Program-made: the position numbers and the translations under genes
In this document: positions 41,409 to 52,354 of the stretch, one piece after another
How positions within the stretch are numbered: position 1 is the stretch's first letter
Layout of the letters: each line of letters starts with the position of its first letter
Source: Diplosphaera chodatii
Lineage: Eukaryota > Chlorophyta > Trebouxiophyceae > Prasiolales > Stichococcaceae
Direction: 5' to 3'
Assembly (NCBI GenBank): GCA_032358165.1
Contig: JAALGY010000015.1
Location: forward strand, 310,001-374,000
Length of the DNA stretch: 64,000 nt
Notes under the pieces: generated by a model
What the model was told of the DNA's origin: nothing
The model's input: the letters and a program-made list of their open reading frames with translations, nothing else
Databases searched by the model: none

Positions 41409-42393
41409 CGCAACGCCACTGCACTCGGCTACGTCAACGTGACCAATGAATCTCGGCTGTTGATTGCTGCAATTGCGTTACCCTAACAGGGGACCTTGCA
41501 GGTGATCCAGTGCGATATGGCGTGCAGCTCTCCGCAGCAGCAACAATTTGATGATATCCCCGACCACTGGCAAAGATTCCGAAAGCATACAATGTCAACT
41601 CGATGTGTTGCACCATCACACACCAGAGTGTTACTGATCTGGCCGCGCTGCATCCGGCCTGAAGCCAAGGCGGAATCTATGTTCAGTGTCTTAGTATCGA
41701 CGTTCCGCATGAGAAACTTCAAGCGTGGTAGTTTACATGATATTGTTGCCCCCAGGCCCTTTACTTTCGTCAAGATGCGGCGTGCCTTTACAGTTTCTGA
41801 TAGTCCCCGATACTTATGCAGTACAGTAAAGTTTTCTCCCCACGCGATCTCTGTAAAAGTTGTGAATTCCCCGTCAATTCGCACGCTCGTCACGGCCGGC
41901 GTGGTGCGCACGAGGCCCGGCGGCCCGCCGTGGGCTGTTCAGTACGGTTGGCTTGCAGTGACCAAGTGCATGGCGACCACTGAGATGCACGCCGTTGAGA
42001 GATTTAAACTTAGCGTCGCAACCGCGACCGGCACGATGCACCGCTGCTACAGCGCTTCCGTGTGGTAGATCTGCGCTAGTGAAGCTTGCCGATGCGGGGT
42101 GTTTGGCTGGTGTGTTGCGCTGCCGGTGCCGATCAGACCTTAATCAGACTTCACCGGCATCGTTTACCGGCAATTGCTGAAAGTCTGTCGGGTTGTTCGC
42201 GTGGCGCTTATGCACGCTGTAAACTATCGCGTGGATCTTTGTCACAAATGACTTTGCGTCTGCATCCCGGTTGCATGCTGCCGCCGCAGCTGCGTTTCTG
42301 CAGCACGTGCCTGCAACATTGCTTCGTTTGCTGACCCTTTCAGCCCCCCTTTCAACCCCTGTATGTCAACTGCACATCCCCTGCTCCTCCACC
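41409..42393. other. Intergenic stretch with an unexplained AT-richer open frame
   Basis: Upstream flank of the mutase (-) and left flank of the transposon. The sequence is clearly less GC-rich than its neighbours. Open frames run on both strands: minus 41483-41911 and plus 41496-42068. The minus frame has the more protein-like text (SVRIDGEFTTFTEIAWGENF, then RGLSETVKARRILTKVKGLG) and is open above its nominal GTG start. No family, splice site or start was recognised. It may be a decayed mobile-element gene or just unspliced upstream sequence. Confidence 0.3.
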
Positions 42394-42402
42394 CCTGCAA
42401 AT
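42394..42402. repeat. Target-site duplication, left copy
   Basis: CCTGCAAAT, immediately outside the left terminal inverted repeat and identical to 49398-49406. Confidence 0.9.
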
Positions 42403-42481
42403 GCACGACGCCCGTTACTGACCTTTCCAACTTAAGCAGGGTTTAAGCGATGGCCATCAGTCTACAGACGTTGACGACTGT
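42403..42481 (+). repeat. Left terminal inverted repeat, 79 bp
   Basis: Begins GCACGACGCCCGTTACTGAC and ends GACGTTGACGACTGT. It matches the reverse complement of 49319-49397 base for base. Inside this point the two ends diverge, although both continue with a GTGAGC-like stretch. Confidence 0.95.
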
Positions 42482-42579
42482 AAACCTGTGAGCACTTAAA
42501 CGATTTTCAAGCACACAGCTCTGCACTGTGCACATCCAATGCAGTCTGCAGCCAACTTGGTGCGGTCTTAGCACCCGGC

Positions 42580-44591
42580 ATGGGGACGGTTGCTGATATC
42601 AGCCGTCAAGTGCAGTCGCCTGACCAGTCGAACGCCGAAGTCCACCAGCAGGTGCCCATCTGCAGCACTTCTTCCGGTGTGATCCCGCGGGTAAGAAACG
42701 GTTTGCCCGCCGGTGGCCTGAAAGGATGCGATGCGGTCAGGTATACGAGTATCATGTTCAACGAAATGCAATCTGCTGTTGCATGCAGGCGAGCCCACTG
42801 GGGTGCCTGCCGCAGCGCTACGAGGAGTACCGGCGCTTACTGCAGGGCAGTGCAGCATGGCACCAGGCCAGGAAGTACCGCCTGACTGCGTCAGACTCAG
42901 CTGTAGTCTGCAGCCCAGCCAGCGACGGTCTGCAGAAGCGGCAGGCCAGGCTTGCAGCCAAGCTTGCCGGCGGAAGCATACCCACAGCGGCAATGCAGCA
43001 TGGCATTGCCAGCGAGCCGCTTGCAGCTGAGGCTTACAGGCAGCATGTGCTGGGTACGCTTCCAACGGGCAGCAGCGTCACACTGCACACAGAGGGACTG
43101 TGGCTGCATGCTGCAGAGGATTGGCTGGGTGCGTCCCCAGATGCCCTCGTTTCAGTCACGGTGCCAGGCCAGGGTCCAGCGGTGCACCTGCTGGAGATCA
43201 AATGCCCGCACAGTCGCCAGCCAGCTGACTTCCAGCAGCTGCCGCAGCACATCGAGGCTCAGGTGCTGACACAGCTGGCGGTGATAGGCAGCCACAACCT
43301 CCCGCTGTTCCGGAACCCGCACGCCAAGGTGTTCATCTGGTTCGCTGACCAGGCCCCTGTCGTACACCACGTGGACTGGGCTGGTGGTGGGCAGCGGCAG
43401 TGGCAGAGCAGCATTCTTCCCCGCCTGCAGCGCTGCTGGAAGCAGGAATGGGGGCCTGCCATGCGGACGGCAGGGCATGCACCCACCGTGCAACCATTGC
43501 AGGAGCTGCCTCAGCCCACGGCGTCTCAACAATGCATCGCAGAGGACCTGTCAGCTTCAGACAGCGACGATGCTGATGAGCCTGCTGCAGCGGATGCCAA
43601 GCTACACCTGGCACTGGGCGACCCTGCAGCCAGCGATGCGCAGCGGCTGGCAGCCGCACGGACAGCCGCTGCAAGCCTGGTGCAACTGCTGGACCAGCAG
43701 GCGCTCAAGGTCGGCAGCCGTGTGCAGCACATCAAAACATCCAGCTTCGGCACCATCACAGCCGCGGTGCCCGCCGGATTTGTGGTGGCATGGGAGGGCA
43801 AAGCTGGCCAGCGGCAGCGTTCAACAGGCACGCACAACCTCAGGGCGGTCGTCGAAACAGCCAGCAGTCAATGGCAGCAGCTCGTGGGCGCCTGCGCATA
43901 TGTGCCGGTGTTGGTGGCGAGCGGCACACATGCCGGCAGATGCGGCGTAACGTTGCGGCAGACGGGACCTTGGTGGCACGTGGAGCTGTCCGAAGGGCAG
44001 GTCGAGTACTTGCCGCAAACAGCGTTGTTCCAGCGGGCTGGGCCTTCAGCAACCCCTTCAGATTGTGCTGGCCCTCAGGTAATGTTCATTATCACACTCG
44101 CCAAGGTTCGCAAGCCTTGACAGCTTCGATCTTGTCACTGGCGGAACTCCAGTTACCCATCACCCAGTGACACTCGAGCATATCAACAGCGTTTTCTCTG
44201 CGGAATGCTATCCAGGTCGTGGCCACCAATGTGCCACTACGAGAGCTGCCAGACCGCCTCACAAGCTATGCCAACAGCCAAGGCGTCGACCTGATTCTGC
44301 TCAAGCCTCACTCGCGTAGTGAGTACGAGGCCTTCTGCCAAGGTGTGGAGATGCTATGCTGTCAATGCCAACATATGACGTCATGATATCAAGTGCATTG
44401 GTGCTTATGCTACCTTCGACAAGCAGCACCGTGACAAGCGTCTAGAGCATCCTGATGGTGTGAGCGTAATTCTGATTGCTATCACAATTCACCTTGACAA
44501 CAGGCGCAGCCGACGAGGATATGTCCTCCCCACAGCAGCTGGCCCCGCCTGCACCGCCGCTGTCAGAGCAGCAGCAGAAGCAGCCCCCGCT

Positions 44592-44641
<50 letters not shown>

Positions 44642-47600
44642 CAAGCCTTGCTCAGCAGGAGCACAGCACCGGCACGAGCACAAAGCATGCCCGCCAGCGC
44701 CGTGTGGCTGCCGTGTTCGGCTGCCGCCGAGGCCGCAGCACCAAACCCAGTCGGCAGCCGGGTCACAAACAGAGCATCTCTGGCGTGAAGTGCGGCTGTC
44801 CATTTCAGCTGGCAGTAATTGTGGACCGCAGCCGTGCTGGCGTTGTTGATCTCGTTGTCACGGCGCCGCATCAGTTTCACGTGCCTGGCAGCCCCGAGGA
44901 TCAGCGGCAGCTGCGTGTCGACCGGCGCCTGGAGCAGCGGGCTGTCGAACTGTTCGGCCTGGGGCTGCCGCCGCGCCGCGTCCTGCGTCTGCTGGACAAG
45001 GAAAGCGATCAGCTTTTGTCGCAAGCCCTTGGCGGCGACAAAGCAGCATATGATGCCAGCTTCCAGTCTTCGCGTTGGTGGGCATCACAGCGTGCCTTGC
45101 GCAGCATTCAGAAGCGCGTCATCAACAGCCAGCGCATCGCCGGCTCAGATCTGACTGCAGTGGAAGCAATGCTTGGCGCCTTGGAGGCGGCAGGCGACGA
45201 CAGCGTGCTGCTATACCAGCCACAGCTCAGCGACGACGGCGTCATCAAGCAGCGGCTGGTCATCGTCGTCTGCACACCCTTCCAGCGCGCCCTGCTCCAG
45301 GCTTTTGGGAGGGAGTTGGTGTGCATGGATGCAACAGGTGTCAACTCGTCTACTCGTCATGTCAGATGCCTGTCAGTGATGTTTCTGACAACCTGTGTAT
45401 GATGGCGCATGCATATATGTAGGCGTCTGTGATTTGGAACTTCTGACACATACCATCGTTCATGTTGACATGCATTGTGTTGGCAGGTGGCATCTGCAAG
45501 TATGGATACATGCTCACAGCCATCTTCGTCGTCAACGACTTCATGTCGGCCGACGCGGCTGCATGGATGATCAGCGATGTGAAGGCACAGCAGAGCTGAA
45601 GACATTCATTCAGGTGGTGGAGCGCGCCGTCAACCAGGACATCCACACAGGTACCCTTTCAACCTCCTGCCTGGGTCATAACTGTGCACAACGGCTGCTA
45701 TGCAGTTGCAGCTGCTGTCACGTATATACTTACTGGCTTTCGGCTATAGGACAGCATTCCGGTTCTCAGCAGTCGCATCGAATGTGTGTTACGCAGGGCG
45801 GATTGGCGGACAGCAGGCGGACGTAGTGTTGGGCCATGTCACGCACTCATCCCAGCTGACCCCGCAGCCGGCACACGCGCATGTCATCGAGCAGCCATCA
45901 GCCGTACCCAAGACTCCGCAGGTGATTGAAGCACAGTAATAGACAATGGTTCTATGTGCAATGAACAACAACAGCACTTTGAAAGCGTTGGCATGAGCTG
46001 TATTTTGACAGGTGGGAGTCGACAAGCCAAGAGGCCATGATAACTGTGTCATCGTAGAGAGTGTGCAAACGTGGCATTGTACCTCGTGTAGGCGTTGGTG
46101 GCGTTGCCGCCACCGCCACGCTTGCCGCCAGTGGTGATCCAGGGGCATCCGGCGGGTCCCCTGCGGCAGCCGCCTGTGTCCTCGCAACTCGAGGCTGCTC
46201 TGCGGCAGCATCGGACACCGCCTTCACTGCTGCAGCCGCTGGGGAGTTCGCCAGGAGTAGTGCCTCAGGTGAACCTGGTTGCTGAGCAGAGTTCAAACCA
46301 GAGAGACTCGAGCAACGGTCCTCTGAGTGCTAACAATATGAACTGTTGGCACTGCAGACGCCCGAGACACAACTACTGCCGGCGGCAGCGCATCCTGCAT
46401 GGGACATGCTGCAGCAGGGGTGTGTGACGCCGCAAGCAGAAGCCCTGCAGCAGCTGCTGCCGGTGTCGCCACCACAACAGCCTTCTCCAGTGCTGGCTGT
46501 GACACCGCAGGTAAACATCTGCAACTGACGTGTGTTGGACTGTGAGTGTAGCTCATGATATTGCTAGGCATCAGGACTGCAAGACATCCCGCTCTTGTCA
46601 GCCCCTGACCCTGGACTGTGGGCTGTTTCACAGGTGTCTGCAGCGCTGCCACTGCCATCTGTGCCTGAGACGCAATTTGCCACGGGCACGGTGCCACCGA
46701 AAGGAAGAGAGGCTGCCGTGCAGCAGGAGCAATCAGTGCAGCTGAGCCCTGCAGAGCTACAGCCGCTGCCATCATTGGTCGAGCCTCGGCTGCAGCCACA
46801 GCCGCTGTTGCAAGAGCCAAGTCAGCAGTCAGCCCAGCAGCAGCAGCAGCAGCAGCAGCAGCCCCCGCCGCCACCGCCACGCCTTCCCACATTCAGGATG
46901 CAGCGCTTCATGATCGACAAGTCCAAAGCGGAGATGAGCGCATGCAACCAGCTCCAGCGCCAGTATCTGCTATGCTGGTTCCACGTCTTACAAGAGTGGG
47001 ACCGGTTCCTGAAGTCAGCAGCCAGCGGCGTCAAAGCTGCGGCCGACCGCACCAGCATCATCCGGCGGGTGCAGGCATTGCTACGCCTGGCTGATGAGCG
47101 CAGCTTTTGGCACCACAGCAAGCAGTTTGAGGCCGACCTGGACAGCCGCTTCCCATCGGTGGTGCAACAGTACAGGACATACTGGGCGCCGCTTGCGCAG
47201 CACTGGGCAGCCTTCGGCAGATCAGCAGTCAGCCACTTGCGCACCGACACCAACAACTTTGCGGAGCGCGGCTTTGGCGTCCTCAAGTACACGTGGATGG
47301 ATGGACGGAAAGGCGTGCAGCTGGTCGACTTCCTCAGGCTGTTGCTCGATGAGCTCGCGGCGGACATGGTGGTACAGCGGCGCAAGCTGGTTGCTGGTGT
47401 GGCAGCGGGGAGGTATGAAGCCGCGCATGCCAAGCACCAGTTCGACATCAAGTACCTCGTCGACAGCGGCTCCGTGCAGGTCAGGACCCAGCTTCTAATA
47501 CGCAGGCCTAGACAGCAGCCACAATGTAGCGTCCTGTTGTTCACTTGAAGTATAACTACAAGACCAGGTTACCATACGGTTTTATGTTGTTCTTACTCCT

Positions 47601-48737
47601 ATGTGTCTCTACTGGGCGCAGGTAACAATCCCTGAGCTGGGGGCGGTGCTGGTGAACAGCCAGACGAAGCCGGGCGTTGTGTACAGCTGCATGTTGGGCG
47701 ACTGCAGCTGCGAGTGCCCAGATCGACAGCGTAGCGGCGCAGTCTGCAAACACCTTGAGGCGGCAGCACAGCGGGTCAGCTTCACGGCAGCGATGCGGAT
47801 GGCAGCTGCACAAACCATCGTGATAGAGAAGCTTCTGCAGCCTGTGGACGCAAAGGCAGGCATGTGGCACTGCCCAGCACTCGTTCCCGCAGCCGCTCTC
47901 ACCTACCAGTTGAATGTGCACAGCAGCTTTTGCAGCTGCCCAGACTGGGCAGAGCATCAGGTGTGCTGCCACTTGCTGGCGGCCGCACAGTACCAGCAGA
48001 TCTTGGCGCTGCCGCATGGGCTGGCGGTAACTGCGACGGGCAGCAGTGGCAGCGGCTTGCGCGACCCCATCTCAGTGAGCCGCCGGTTGCCGCAGCAGGT
48101 CAAGCCGCTGCAGCACCTCGAGCCACTGCTGGTGGTCGATGCTACGGCTGGCAGCGTGCAGGGCTGCACCAGCACTGCAGCGGCGCGGCAGCATGCCGAA
48201 GTGCGCTCGGAGCCAGCCAAGGAGCTGGTGCGGCTTGGTGCACAGCTGCAGTCGTTGGCCAACCATGGGCTGCCGGATGAGGCGATCAGCGACCAGCTGA
48301 CAGCGCTGCGGCAGATAGCTGACAACCTGCAGCAGGCGACTCCCCGCTTCCAGTTCCGGCGGCGACCAGCGCAGCCGGGAGACCGCCGCACCGATGGGCA
48401 GAGGCGAGTCGTGCCGCTCTTTGTCAGGCGTGTACGACCATCCCCTGCTTCGGCAGCCAATGGCAAGGAGAACAGACAGCCAGAGCAGGCAAGCTCGCTC
48501 AGAGGTAGCATTGCATCAGCCACTGACGGCAGCGGAAGCAGGATTGCTGGAGAGCCGCCGTTAGCCAAGCGGCGGCGCACGGCTGGTGGTGGCGGCGGCG
48601 ACGGCGGCAGCAAGGGCGACACCGGCAGCTGCCCCCCACAGTTTGCAACTGTCGTTGCGAGCGGCAGGCCTCGCAAGCCGGTGGGTCGTGCTTGCCAGTA
48701 TGCAGAATGTGTGCATGTCTGCAGTTGGGCAGTTTAA
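42580..48737 (+). CDS. MULE-encoded fusion: YqaJ-type nuclease + MULE DDE transposase + two SWIM zinc fingers (one frame break)
   Basis: Exons: 42580-42690, 42789-44078, 44216-44342, 44504-45337, 45487-45650, 45797-45921, 46092-46268, 46358-46510, 46634-47479 and 47622-48737, about 1,647 aa if the break is ignored. Exon 2 is a YqaJ/lambda-exonuclease-like domain: WHQARKYRLTASDSA, GIASEPLAAEAY, LGASPDAL, LLEIKCPHSR (PD-(D/E)XK core). Exon 4 has a poly-Gln run, a FAR1-like zinc segment (VKCGCPFQL to HQFHVPGS) and the first catalytic Asp (VCMDATG). Exon 9 has the second Asp (MIDKSKAE), CWFHV and the Glu (DTNNFAERGFG). Exon 10 has SWIM fingers CSCECPDRQRSGAVCKHL and CSCPDWAEHQVCCHL, then a basic NLS-like tail. 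Phases close everywhere except exon 5, which is one nucleotide short. A further 3' exon after 48682 is possible. Confidence 0.8.
44593..44640 (+). repeat. (CAG)n repeat, poly-Gln in the transposase
   Basis: Sixteen glutamine codons, almost all CAG, in exon 4 of the transposon gene just before the FAR1-like zinc segment. A shorter CAG run at about 46838-46860 encodes another Gln stretch in exon 9. Confidence 0.9.
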
Positions 48738-49318
48738 CCACCATCACAACATCGCCCTGGCGACTCGCTGTCGCAGCAAGCTTTAGCATGGTGCATGGCA
48801 TGCGTATGGTAAGCATGGCTAGTTAGCTTTCAGTCGCCTTCTGGGTGCATCTGCAGAGGACTGCATTGACGACGCTGCATGGCACCCAGCCTGGCCAGCA
48901 GGCGAAGCCTGGCAAGATAGCGAAGCCCCGCATGACGGCCGCAAACACGCAAACGATGCCGCTTTGAGATTGGGCATCAGGGAGAACACCTGCTGTGGTG
49001 TTGACTACGATGGCTGCACCATGTGTGTAAACCAGATTTTCATCGGCAACGTGACATGTCTACCTGACTCCGCCCCTCCTCTCTGATGCAATTGATGAGC
49101 ATGTTTCACCTTGTTGGCACAGCGTTTGGCAGCACGGCCGCTGCTTGCATGCCTTGGCATCACTGGCAATCACTCATGCACAATCACTGGTTGTGAGCTG
49201 CGCGCATGTCTCCGACGAGGCGCGAACAATATGAACTTGCATCTGATGACATCCAGATCGCTATCGCAAGCTGTCATACAAGAACGCCGCGGTCAGAGCG
49301 GCAGCTAGTGAAGGGCTC
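48738..49318. other. Transposon 3' non-coding segment
   Basis: About 580 bp between the transposase stop and the right terminal repeat. No further open frame with convincing splice sites was recognised. Confidence 0.5.
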
Positions 49319-49397
49319 ACAGTCGTCAACGTCTGTAGACTGATGGCCATCGCTTAAACCCTGCTTAAGTTGGAAAGGTCAGTAACGGGCGTCGTGC
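49319..49397 (-). repeat. Right terminal inverted repeat, 79 bp
   Basis: Perfect reverse complement of 42403-42481. The outer end is GGGCGTCGTGC, directly followed by the 9-bp duplication. Confidence 0.95.
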
Positions 49398-49406
49398 CCT
49401 GCAAAT
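49398..49406. repeat. Target-site duplication, right copy
   Basis: CCTGCAAAT, identical to 42394-42402. Confidence 0.9.
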
Positions 49407-49717
49407 CCATCCGTGCCTGGGGCCTACCCATATCATACCCCCCTAATTTCTACCACGCCGACGAAGTAGTGCGTACTGCCGATCTGGCCAGCTGACAACA
49501 ACGACAATGTACGCATGGCATCATATGCCCTGAGGAGTATTGGATCGAGGAGAAGGCGGCGTCGTTAGTGACCGACGCGTGCAAACGACGGTGTCACCAG
49601 AATTTTGACGCCAAGCGCGTGCGGTGGCACCTGGCTTTTGCTGCGCTCCCAGCACAGAGGACCTAGCTCGCCGGCGGCATGTGAGCAGCCTGTCTTATCG
49701 GCTGAGTAGGCCGTACC
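49407..49717. promoter_or_regulatory. Remaining upstream region of the SnRK2-type gene
   Basis: Only 311 bp are left between the transposon's right target duplication and the kinase start codon. Any promoter element of the kinase farther than this has been displaced by 7 kb. No TATA box was seen. Confidence 0.5.
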
Positions 49718-52354
49718 ATGGGGTGCGGCGGTTCCAAGTCGCAGGCCCCGGGGCCGCAGGAGGCTTCGAAGCACACTGCCTCGCAAAAGGGCGAGGTGCA
49801 GCGGCAGTCGGGCTCCGTCAGGCGGGCGATCACCAAGCAGGATGAGCAGAAGCCGGTGCAGCCGAAGTACGAGGAGGTGCGAATTCGCTGTTGCGCCTGC
49901 ATCAACCCCTCTGTGCACAGGTACCAGCTGCGATGGGGATGCATGTCGGGCACAGCCTGTGGGCATGCGGGATTGTCTGAAGGTCGTCGATGGTATAGGA
50001 GCAGCATACTTTTAGCTATACTGCTCGGCAACACACTGAGCCTCGCTGCTTGCGCGTGGTGTTGTCGTTTTGCTGTCTGTGGCAGCGGCGTCACTAAAAA
50101 CCCAAAATCATTCTTGCAGGTACGGGACGTGGGCAGCGGCGCCTTCGGCGTCTGCAAGCTGATGAAGAACACGCGCACGGGGGAGATGGTGGCCGTCAAG
50201 CTCATGGAGCGGGGCGACAAGGTGGGTGTACCGACGCGGCGTCGATCCCGGCATTGGCCACTAGCCGAGGCACAATGCGTGCACATACCAAAGACTGCCC
50301 ATCGACAGTCTGTCTGCTGCAGATCGACATCAACGTGGAGCGGGAGGTGCTGAACCACAAGCAGCTGGTGCACCCCAACGTGGTGCAGTTCAAAGAGGTG
50401 CGCCTGCATGGAGAGGGGGGCCTGCCACTGTCGCCACACAGCATGGGCACTTCGGCACACCGAGACTTCGTAAAACTGAAGCGGCTGGCGCAGGCAGTAC
50501 ATGTGCAGGATACACACAGCAATGCGCCGCAACGGACGGAACTGTTGAAACTCTCAAGTGCATCTCCAGGTGTTCGTGACGGATGCACACCTGGGTGTGG
50601 CTCTCGAGTATGCTGCTGGCGGCGAGCTGTTCGACACGGTGGCGCGCGCCGGCAAGCTGCCGGAGATCGAGGCCCGCTACTTCTTCCAGCAGCTCATCTT
50701 GGGCCTGGAGTACTGCCACAACAGGGTGGGCCCACACGGCGGTGCTGAGACAGGTCGTGGTGGCGTCATGTCATGTCAGGTGACGGCCGCAGATGTTTGC
50801 CGCAGCATATGGCGATGCCGAGCTGGTCCATCTCTTGCCCTGCAGGGGGTGGTGCATCGGGACCTGAAGCTGGAGAACCTCCTGCTGGATGGCAGCCCGC
50901 AGCAGCGCCTCAAGATTGCCGACTTTGGGTATTCAAAGGCGAGTGGGCGTCGGCATGCCGCACAGCCGTGCCACGATCCTTGTGACAGCCTGCTGGTCTC
51001 ATCTCAGCAGATCTCTGCATCCAGCCCCGAGCGGATGGCACTGGCCTGACGTGGGTGTGCGGTTGTGCTGCAGAACATGTACGCCTCACAGCCCAAGTCA
51101 ACAGTGGGCACGGTCGCGTACATCGCTCCAGAGGTGAGGACACGCTCATGGTTTGTGCACCTGGCAGAAGCTCCAAGGACAGCAAATGCTGCTGCAACTG
51201 CGGCTTGGGCTTTCGGATGGCCCCCACGGCCATGAGGTGCCTGCATGTGCCGTGGCGCAGGTGCTGACCAGCAAGCGGGACGCGGCAAAGTACAAGGGGC
51301 CGGCGGCGGATCTGTGGTCCTCCGCCGTCATCCTGTTCGTGATGCTCAGCGGCGCGTACCCCTTCGAGGACGCGCGCGACCCGCGCAACATGAAGAAGAC
51401 CGTGGAGGTGCGGGTCCCATTCCTGCAGCCTGCTGCTGCTTGCCACCAACCTATCCCAGGGCTCTGGGAAGCGTCCGCCGTGTGCAGACGGTGACTTGCA
51501 CCCTGTCAGCTGGGCCATGGGTGTTATCACAGCACCAATGCTGCCAGTGGACCACATCGCAGGCGATCCTGGACGTCAAGTACCAGTTCCCGAAGGGCCT
51601 GACGCGCGAGTGCCGCGACCTGATACGCGGCCTGTTCCAGAAGGACCCCGCCGAGCGGCTGTCCATCGCCGAGATCAAGAAGCACCCCTGGTTCAAGTCC
51701 CACCTGCCCGAGGAGCTGTCGGTGAGCGGCGCTGTCTGCTCATATACCGTCAACCACTGACATGGCTGTGCACACCTGTCAGTCCACGGGCAGTGTTTGC
51801 AGCAGTAGCGCGCTGGTCATACGACTGCTGACATCACGCCTGCAAGCCAGGCTGAACAGCTTGTCTGCTGTTAGCTGGTGACCATCACACTGTGCCCACA
51901 TGGAGCACCATTGATGCCAACAGGACGAGGGCATCGCGGGGATGGAGGCCAGCATGCAGCCCAGCACCCAGTCGGACGAGGAGATCCGGGAGGTGCTGCA
52001 GCAGGCGCAGCGGCGGCTGCCCAGCCACAAGGAGGTCGAGTTCTTCGCCAAGTACGGGTACCCAATGGGCCAGGACCCGCCCCCACAGCAGCAGCAGCAG
52101 CAGTCCAAGCCGGCAGCCAACGCGCCCAAGCTGAAATCGTTTGACAGGTGGGTGTTGGAGAGCAGACTTACACCCTATCTGAGGCAGTGGCCTGCCTTTC
52201 GTCTGAGACTGATCAAAGTTCAGTTACAAAATGTCTTTGATTCTACTGCAGCGAGTTCATCGATGCTGAAATGGACGATTACATGAACGGCATCCCGGAC
52301 AAGCAGCTGTCTGTAGACCCAGAGGAGCGGCTTGGCATGCTGCCTGGGCGCTAA
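49718..52354 (+). CDS. SnRK2-type serine/threonine protein kinase with N-myristoylation-like start, 425 aa
   Basis: Kinase of the SNF1-related group 2, which in plants signals osmotic, nutrient or ABA stress. Ten exons close in phase: 49718-49876, 50120-50221, 50323-50397, 50570-50725, 50846-50938, 51074-51133, 51261-51407, 51563-51721, 51924-52147 and 52252-52354. Motifs: glycine loop [20 protein letters not shown] (catalytic Lys), [27 protein letters not shown], and activation loop [15 protein letters not shown], the SnRK2 signature. [22 protein letters not shown] and HPWF follow. The C-terminus has a poly-Gln linker and an acidic end ([15 protein letters not shown]) as in SnRK2 tails. The 53-residue N-terminal extension begins MGCGGSKSQ, a good acylation signal not usual for SnRK2. 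The intron after 50938 begins GC. Confidence 0.93.

Follow-up and report, generated by a model that had tools for sequence, protein, structure and literature searches.

A candidate fusion of a YqaJ-type nuclease and a transposase in a MULE-like transposon of the green alga Diplosphaera chodatii

YqaJ exonuclease domains have been described previously in eukaryotic transposons of the ISL2EU group, where the domain lies on a second open reading frame (ORF) and, in the passages of the two papers that concern it, its function is called unknown (PMC4482050; PMC9179366). For Mutator-like elements (MULEs), the extra motifs given in the table of one survey include OTU, SET, FAR1 and PMD (PMC6446971), and neither 'nuclease' nor 'YqaJ' occurs in the main text of that survey, while in a survey of arthropod MULEs 'exonuclease' is absent from the main text and 'YqaJ' from the full text (PMC13359780). 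Inoue 2018, which by its title and abstract concerns piggyBac-herpesvirus elements, is also without the term 'YqaJ' (PMC5822658). In the titles and abstract openings of the open-access papers among the matches listed, no YqaJ-MULE fusion was reported, subscription papers and Repbase lying outside that scope. The DNA analysed in this study is a stretch of 64,000 nucleotides from Diplosphaera chodatii (contig JAALGY010000015.1, positions 310,001 to 374,000 of the forward strand), referred to here as the window, in which an element of 6995 bp occupies positions 42403-49397. An original prediction, made from the sequence of the window alone, had described this element as a MULE in which a YqaJ-type nuclease and the transposase form one protein, and had noted YqaJ domains in some other eukaryotic transposon groups, for which ISL2EU, as described in those passages, provides the precedent.

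The element is probably a cut-and-paste, MULE-like transposon with a single spliced gene, the product of which would be one protein carrying an N-terminal YqaJ nuclease, a putative zinc finger, a DDE core with a Pro/Gln-rich insertion and two SWIM fingers (Table 1). YqaJ as a separate transposon ORF was known previously, and what would be new here is a MULE-like transposon with an apparently fused exonuclease. The element has moved in the past, as shown by its ends, the 9-bp duplications, empty sites and short elements with the same ends. The perfect 79-bp terminal inverted repeats (TIRs) and the 9-bp target-site duplication (TSD) of the original prediction were recovered, with 79 of 79 bases complementary and the same 9-mer on both flanks, single at two of three paralogous sites. 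A chance origin of TIR and TSD is ruled out by the 79 matching bases together with 9-bp duplications at independent loci. The left flank of the element belongs to a dispersed repeat that matches six further places in the genome. Two of the three paralogous loci examined (L031 and L032) are contiguous through the insertion site with one CCTGCAAAT each, and are therefore paralogous empty sites. The third (L033), a paralogue of window 41742-42402 and 49398-49446, reads CCTGCAAAT-GA-TGCAAATCC and so has a partial duplication at the insertion point (TGCAAAT-GA-TGCAAAT), which resembles and could be a transposon excision footprint, with a small duplication as the alternative. When the genome (85.6 Mb, 55 contigs) was searched with the complete element, a single additional full-length copy, copy B, was detected on the minus strand at C1:1293619-1300609, which is 99% identical and differs by 66 substitutions and 40 indel columns over ~7 kb. 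The density of introns and the Gln-rich proteins would agree with a green algal origin.

As judged from profiles, motifs and predicted fold, exon 1 holds a real PD-(D/E)XK domain of the lambda-exonuclease type. The exon 1 frame matched the Pfam YqaJ profile (PF09588) at 60.7 bits, against a cut-off of 22 (E 2.5e-16), and the RecE-like exonuclease of PHROGs at E 1.1e-14, and a five-row profile searched against the PDB found LHK-Exo (E 1.9e-17), Mimivirus R354 (6.8e-14) and lambda exonuclease (1.3e-4). As a single sequence the frame had no such match in the PDB, and the NCBIfam lambda-exonuclease model stayed under its cut-off (43.3 vs 68.05 bits). The predicted structure of exon 1 is moderately confident at residues ~31-250 only, with a mean predicted local distance difference test score (pLDDT) of 52 over 451 residues. 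For the YqaJ model, Foldseek placed LHK-Exo and lambda exonuclease first, at E 1.1e-9 to 1.1e-7 and target template modelling (TM) scores of up to 0.70 (0.67-0.70 at E ~1e-9), with 3syy/3sz4 among the fold matches. The YqaJ-like nuclease frame of the original prediction is borne out by these profiles, and the structural match to PD-(D/E)XK nucleases on which it had been staked beforehand was found by Foldseek. Residues E97, D139, E157-x-K159 and Q179 (counted in the frame from 42726), which we take to be active-site residues of the YqaJ/lambda exonuclease family, are present in both copies; D139, E157, K159 and Q179 are invariant in the five-row alignment and E97 is not, owing to P0001, a relative described below. 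The domain presumably functions as a nuclease. Behind it, at window 43700-44078, lies a stretch (KVGSRVQHIKTSSFGTITAAV..., GRCGVTLRQTGPWWHVEL) that by eye resembles barrels of the SH3/KOW type, with neither a profile match nor a confident model, the last 200 residues of exon 1 having no confident predicted model at all. The first part of this stretch is kept in P0001.

The gene model spans 42726-48737, with nine exons and eight GT-AG introns in both copies, and was predicted from the sequence with exon borders picked for open, in-phase joins. The exon at 44216-44342 joins its flanking frames in phase, as had been proposed, while the single transposase exon formerly placed at 44504-47479 is replaced by exons 2-9 of this model. 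Spliced copy B has an unbroken frame of 1662 codons (1662 amino acids) from ATG to stop, in the order YqaJ, putative zinc finger, DDE, two SWIM fingers. Exon lengths differ between the copies by 18, 6 and 3 nt, all in phase, the sole exception being the 1-nt difference in exon 4. Because of this frameshift the window copy is probably non-autonomous at present, a broken member of the family with an intact sibling in copy B; the difference could also be an assembly error of the window.

In the window copy a single ATG, at 44521, precedes the zinc finger in the exon-3 frame, whereas the matching codon of copy B is not ATG and the next ATG lies past the finger. With no ATG before the zinc finger in the exon 2-3 frames of copy B, a stand-alone transposase bearing the finger would therefore have no start in these exons, and for this reason one fused nuclease-transposase protein is the simplest reading, in which in-phase splicing from the YqaJ exon would provide the start for the transposase in copy B. 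Two separate proteins encoded by one transposon would have a precedent in ISL2EU, with YqaJ on its second ORF according to the same passages (PMC4482050; PMC9179366). The exon 1 frame would meet a stop at 44118-44120 if intron 1 were retained, the window copy could use ATG 44521, and an ATG in intron 1 with a cryptic donor could possibly supply a separate start. Such a division is nevertheless quite unlikely, given that ATG 44521 is missing from copy B, exon 2 has none, and exons 1, 2 and 3 join in phase at GT-AG sites. The original claim of a single protein is best supported by copy B, the window copy being frameshifted.

The transposase may be called MULE-like by its anatomy, with profile support that is sub-threshold. 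The features that match MULEs are the TIRs (79/79), the 9-bp TSD, which lies in the range of 8-11 bp, and, by motif, the DDE residues and C-x2-H. The motifs of copy B read D765, D1104, C1123-x2-H1126 and E1220, with the SWIM fingers behind them, and a C-x2-H located after the second D and before the E is a MULE motif that Yuan and Wessler reportedly described in 2011. The two catalytic Asp lie far apart because ~280 mostly Pro/Gln-rich residues separate exon 4 from the second Asp in exon 8. The SWIM profile PF04434 matched exon 9 over two stretches (E 1.4e-8). The putative zinc finger of the FAR1/FLYWCH type, a C..C..H..H pattern at 44713-44886, had no Pfam zinc-finger match.

Several results weigh against a fused, MULE-like transposase. 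The Pfam MULE profile PF10551 had no match in the spliced protein, nor in a six-frame translation of the genome, in which the core is divided by introns. Among transposase profiles PF21056 (ZSWIM1/3 RNase-H-like) came closest, at E 0.0011 to 0.015 and 19.3 bits, under its cut-off of 27.2 bits. The predicted model of the DDE piece in exon 8 is too poor for use (mean pLDDT 42.8). When proteins were searched with the transposase, taken without its insertion, none of the 7996 scored candidates, which were those sharing most words, reached E <=0.01; nor did any of the 1684 candidates when the YqaJ part was compared with long proteins, and no second fused protein was present among the protein-search candidates. 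Of the MULE assignment in the original prediction, the ends and the anatomy are supported, and the comparison with MULE/FAR1 profiles that it proposed gave no PF10551 match, a sub-threshold PF21056 match and no Pfam match for the FAR1/FLYWCH motif. Some other superfamilies also make 8-9-bp duplications, for example those related to hAT or to Zisupton/KDZ, and a transposase from one of these would be consistent with the missing PF10551 match and with the lack of a transposase homologue at E <=0.01 in the protein search. This origin appears improbable, however, as PF21056 remains the best profile at E 0.0011, though under cut-off, the order D, D, C-x2-H, E is followed by SWIM fingers, and long TIRs with 9-bp TSDs fit rows of the MULE table (PMC6446971).

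Three other transposase loci of the ZSWIM1/3 type were observed in the genome (L037-L039, at C49:104789, C10:92048 and C10:485163), one of which, with neighbours, is over the PF21056 cut-off. By weak tblastn matches (E 0.03, 0.11 and 0.44) all three have a CxFHVxxxW-like stretch in common with the element, and one also shares a SWIM-like stretch (E 0.24). None has a YqaJ match in the genome-wide YqaJ search.

The flanks of copy B agree at only 7 of 9 TSD bases, which suggests an older insertion or a duplication that has decayed. Comparison of the copies without exon 4 gives an overall ratio of nonsynonymous to synonymous differences per site (pN/pS) of 0.51, from 26 nonsynonymous and 17 synonymous changes. 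The ratio is 0.66 in exon 1, and in YqaJ, where it is based on five changes, 0.51. In exon 8, the location of the second Asp and of the Glu, five changes are nonsynonymous and none is synonymous. Divergence in non-coding sequence is 1.05%. This comparison does not prove constraint or selection on the encoded protein.

The protein search with exon 1 returned four of 1170 candidates, P0001 being close and P0002-P0004 distant. P0001 (337 amino acids, on an 83-kb contig) has 79% identity across 62% of the stretch queried and shows that the YqaJ domain also occurs in a diverged copy of different origin; its first part appears to be frameshifted, which counts against the favoured reading. The metagenomic P0002 is 36% identical. 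Scans of IMG/VR contigs with the element's own exons and with P0002 gave no match, the contig scan with P0003 gave two loci, and scans with alignment A2 gave 80 viral loci kept of 96 confirmed, and six bacterial loci. In a 38-row YqaJ tree, composed of the window copy together with P0002-P0004, 30 of the 80 viral loci and four of the six bacterial loci, with P0001 left out, the window copy grouped with P0002 and P0004; long branches were flagged there and no origin was drawn.

The YqaJ frame could alternatively be a captured passenger, a host or viral gene taken up in the manner of a Pack-MULE and without a role in transposition. The abstract of the MULE survey describes a tendency of MULEs toward capture of host gene fragments (PMC6446971), the three other ZSWIM-type loci of the genome have no detected YqaJ, and pN/pS is weakly informative, with constraint not evident. 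A passenger is still unlikely, as the frame is unbroken in either copy and keeps its catalytic motifs, is spliced in phase to the transposase, and has a diverged relative, P0001, that retains the domain. In addition, the profile search found only two YqaJ matches in the genome, both in this transposon family, and therefore no host donor gene was detected.

If the nuclease is a working part of the fused protein, its contribution can be outlined by comparison with known families. The zinc finger and the SWIM part would bind the long TIRs, and the DDE core would excise and integrate the element with a 9-bp stagger. The tethered nuclease may then chew back DNA ends at the excision site. Phage relatives of the YqaJ nuclease start at duplex ends and digest one of the strands in the 5'-to-3' direction. 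Resection of this kind could steer the donor break to homology-copied repair, by which the element can be restored, or could process the ends left by excision. Should the fusion be real, the likeliest role of the nuclease would be to resect the broken donor site, an assignment made tentatively and at somewhat less than an even chance; the alternatives are end processing, target-site processing and mere DNA binding, and end or gap processing had been the hypothesis of the original prediction. The copy gain of cut-and-paste transposons depends on repair of the donor break, which is usually left to the host. A eukaryotic transposase that shares one polypeptide with a DNA-end resection enzyme might place both excision and the choice of donor-break repair with one protein and so favour regain of the excised copy, a proposal that we regard as rather doubtful at present. 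If true, the fusion of a resection-type exonuclease to a transposase would make donor-break repair part of the element itself, and could perhaps be useful as a tool.

Table 1. Features of the element and their positions in the window.
Feature	Position	Strand	Evidence or remark
Left target-site duplication, CCTGCAAAT	42394..42402	.	same 9-mer at 49398-49406; single in L031 and L032
Left TIR, 79 bp	42403..42481	+	79/79 complementary to right end; perfect also in copy B
Exon 1	42726..44078	+	predicted ATG, YqaJ nuclease, then ~200 residues without confident model; in phase at donor GT 44079
YqaJ/lambda-exonuclease-like PD-(D/E)XK domain	42858..43289	+	PF09588, PDB profile match, fold match, motifs
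Exon 2	44216..44342	+	joins exons 1 and 3 in phase; neither copy has an ATG in this frame
Exon 3	44504..45337	+	poly-Q stretch, zinc-finger-like C/H cluster, first putative catalytic D
Putative C..C..H..H zinc finger, FAR1/FLYWCH type	44713..44886	+	motif only
Putative first catalytic Asp codon (CMDATG)	45328..45330	+	motif; sub-threshold PF21056 match over stretch
Exon 4	45487..45650	+	164 nt in window copy against 165 nt in copy B; site of the frameshift in the window copy
Exon 5	45755..45921	+	GT-AG, in phase in copy B
Exon 6	46092..46268	+	Pro/Gln-rich insertion between first and second catalytic Asp
Exon 7	46358..46510	+	Pro/Gln-rich insertion
Exon 8	46568..47479	+	end of Pro/Gln-rich insertion, second Asp, CWFH (C-x2-H), Glu
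Putative second catalytic Asp codon (FMIDKSKAE)	46916..46918	+	motif
Putative catalytic Glu codon (TNNFAERGF)	47264..47266	+	motif
Exon 9	47622..48737	+	SWIM zinc fingers and C-terminal tail; stop 48735-48737
SWIM zinc finger 1 (CSCECPDRQRSGAVCKHL)	47703..47756	+	PF04434 and motif
SWIM zinc finger 2 (CSCPDWAEHQVCCHL)	47931..47975	+	PF04434 and motif
Right TIR, 79 bp	49319..49397	-	79/79 against left end; perfect also in copy B
Right target-site duplication, CCTGCAAAT	49398..49406	.	same 9-mer as left flank; single in L031 and L032

The further copies in the host genome that the original prediction had suggested looking for are present: searching with the element end gave 18 matches at 12 loci, which comprise the two full copies (copy B included), seven elements of 415 bp (L010, L011, L012, L014, L023, L025 and L026) and three more short ones. 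The outer 33-51 bases of the left TIR are common to the ten short elements. All seven 415-bp elements have both ends and a 9-bp TSD (six exact, one at 8/9), a count made on these seven of the ten short elements. Direct comparison confined their likeness to the full element to the ends, and for this reason they are described as MITE-like (resembling miniature inverted-repeat transposable elements) and were rejected as deletion derivatives. In five of the seven, one end is 98% identical to the first 44 bases of the element, and in the remaining two it is 94% identical to the first 33; the opposite end deviates in its first 8 bases. This asymmetry is seen in all seven, one end beginning GCACGACG as in the full element and the other GCTTTTGC. 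The 415-bp elements may be mobilised by the transposase of the element described here; their asymmetric ends and non-matching interiors make a second autonomous family, as yet unseen, possible. The loci at C10:460644, C49:2909117 and C15:312362 were considered as further autonomous elements and rejected, there being no tblastn match to the protein at E <=1 in the three fetched stretches; two of them have an inverted second end ~0.4 kb off, and 343 bases of the third align with one of these two.

The element is nested in another dispersed repeat, of which ~710 bp (window 41742-42402 and 49398-49446) are common to L031-L033 and the right boundary falls at ATACCCCCCTAA. Further to the right, window 49706-50353 contains a frame with a partial, sub-threshold protein-kinase match (E 0.0026) that starts MGCGGSKS at 49718, a possible N-myristoylation signal. 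As this frame begins ~320 bp downstream of the element, the insertion may be located in the promoter region of a host gene.

Compared with known systems, the element is similar to SWIM-bearing MULEs in its long TIRs, 9-bp TSD, single gene, DDE core with C-x2-H and SWIM finger, but differs from them in the fused N-terminal YqaJ, the large Pro/Gln-rich insertion in the DDE core and the second SWIM finger. The RNase-H-like domain of ZSWIM1/ZSWIM3 (PF21056) is the nearest Pfam profile to the DDE core and has the SWIM finger in common with it, although the match lies under the curated cut-off and the PF21056 profile is without YqaJ. The predicted nuclease has the PD-(D/E)XK fold and catalytic motifs of lambda exonuclease, LHK-Exo and Mimivirus R354; those viral and phage nucleases stand alone, whereas YqaJ would here be tethered to a transposase. 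Stand-alone nucleases of this family in viruses and phages are often paired with an annealing protein. Teratorn, the piggyBac-herpesvirus element of fish, is likewise a cut-and-paste transposon joined to viral-type genes, but it is a 180-kb fusion of transposon and virus and not a nuclease and transposase in one protein. ISL2EU, as far as the cited passages describe it, is also a cut-and-paste DNA transposon encoding a YqaJ exonuclease domain. Its YqaJ is, however, a second ORF beside a THAP/HTH Harbinger-like (PHIS) transposase, and its target site is A|AT|T, whereas the gene model here predicts one fused, MULE-like gene and the TSD is 9 bp. If the fusion is true, two distinct groups of eukaryotic transposons would have taken up YqaJ nucleases, each in its own architecture, and this would argue for a shared need.

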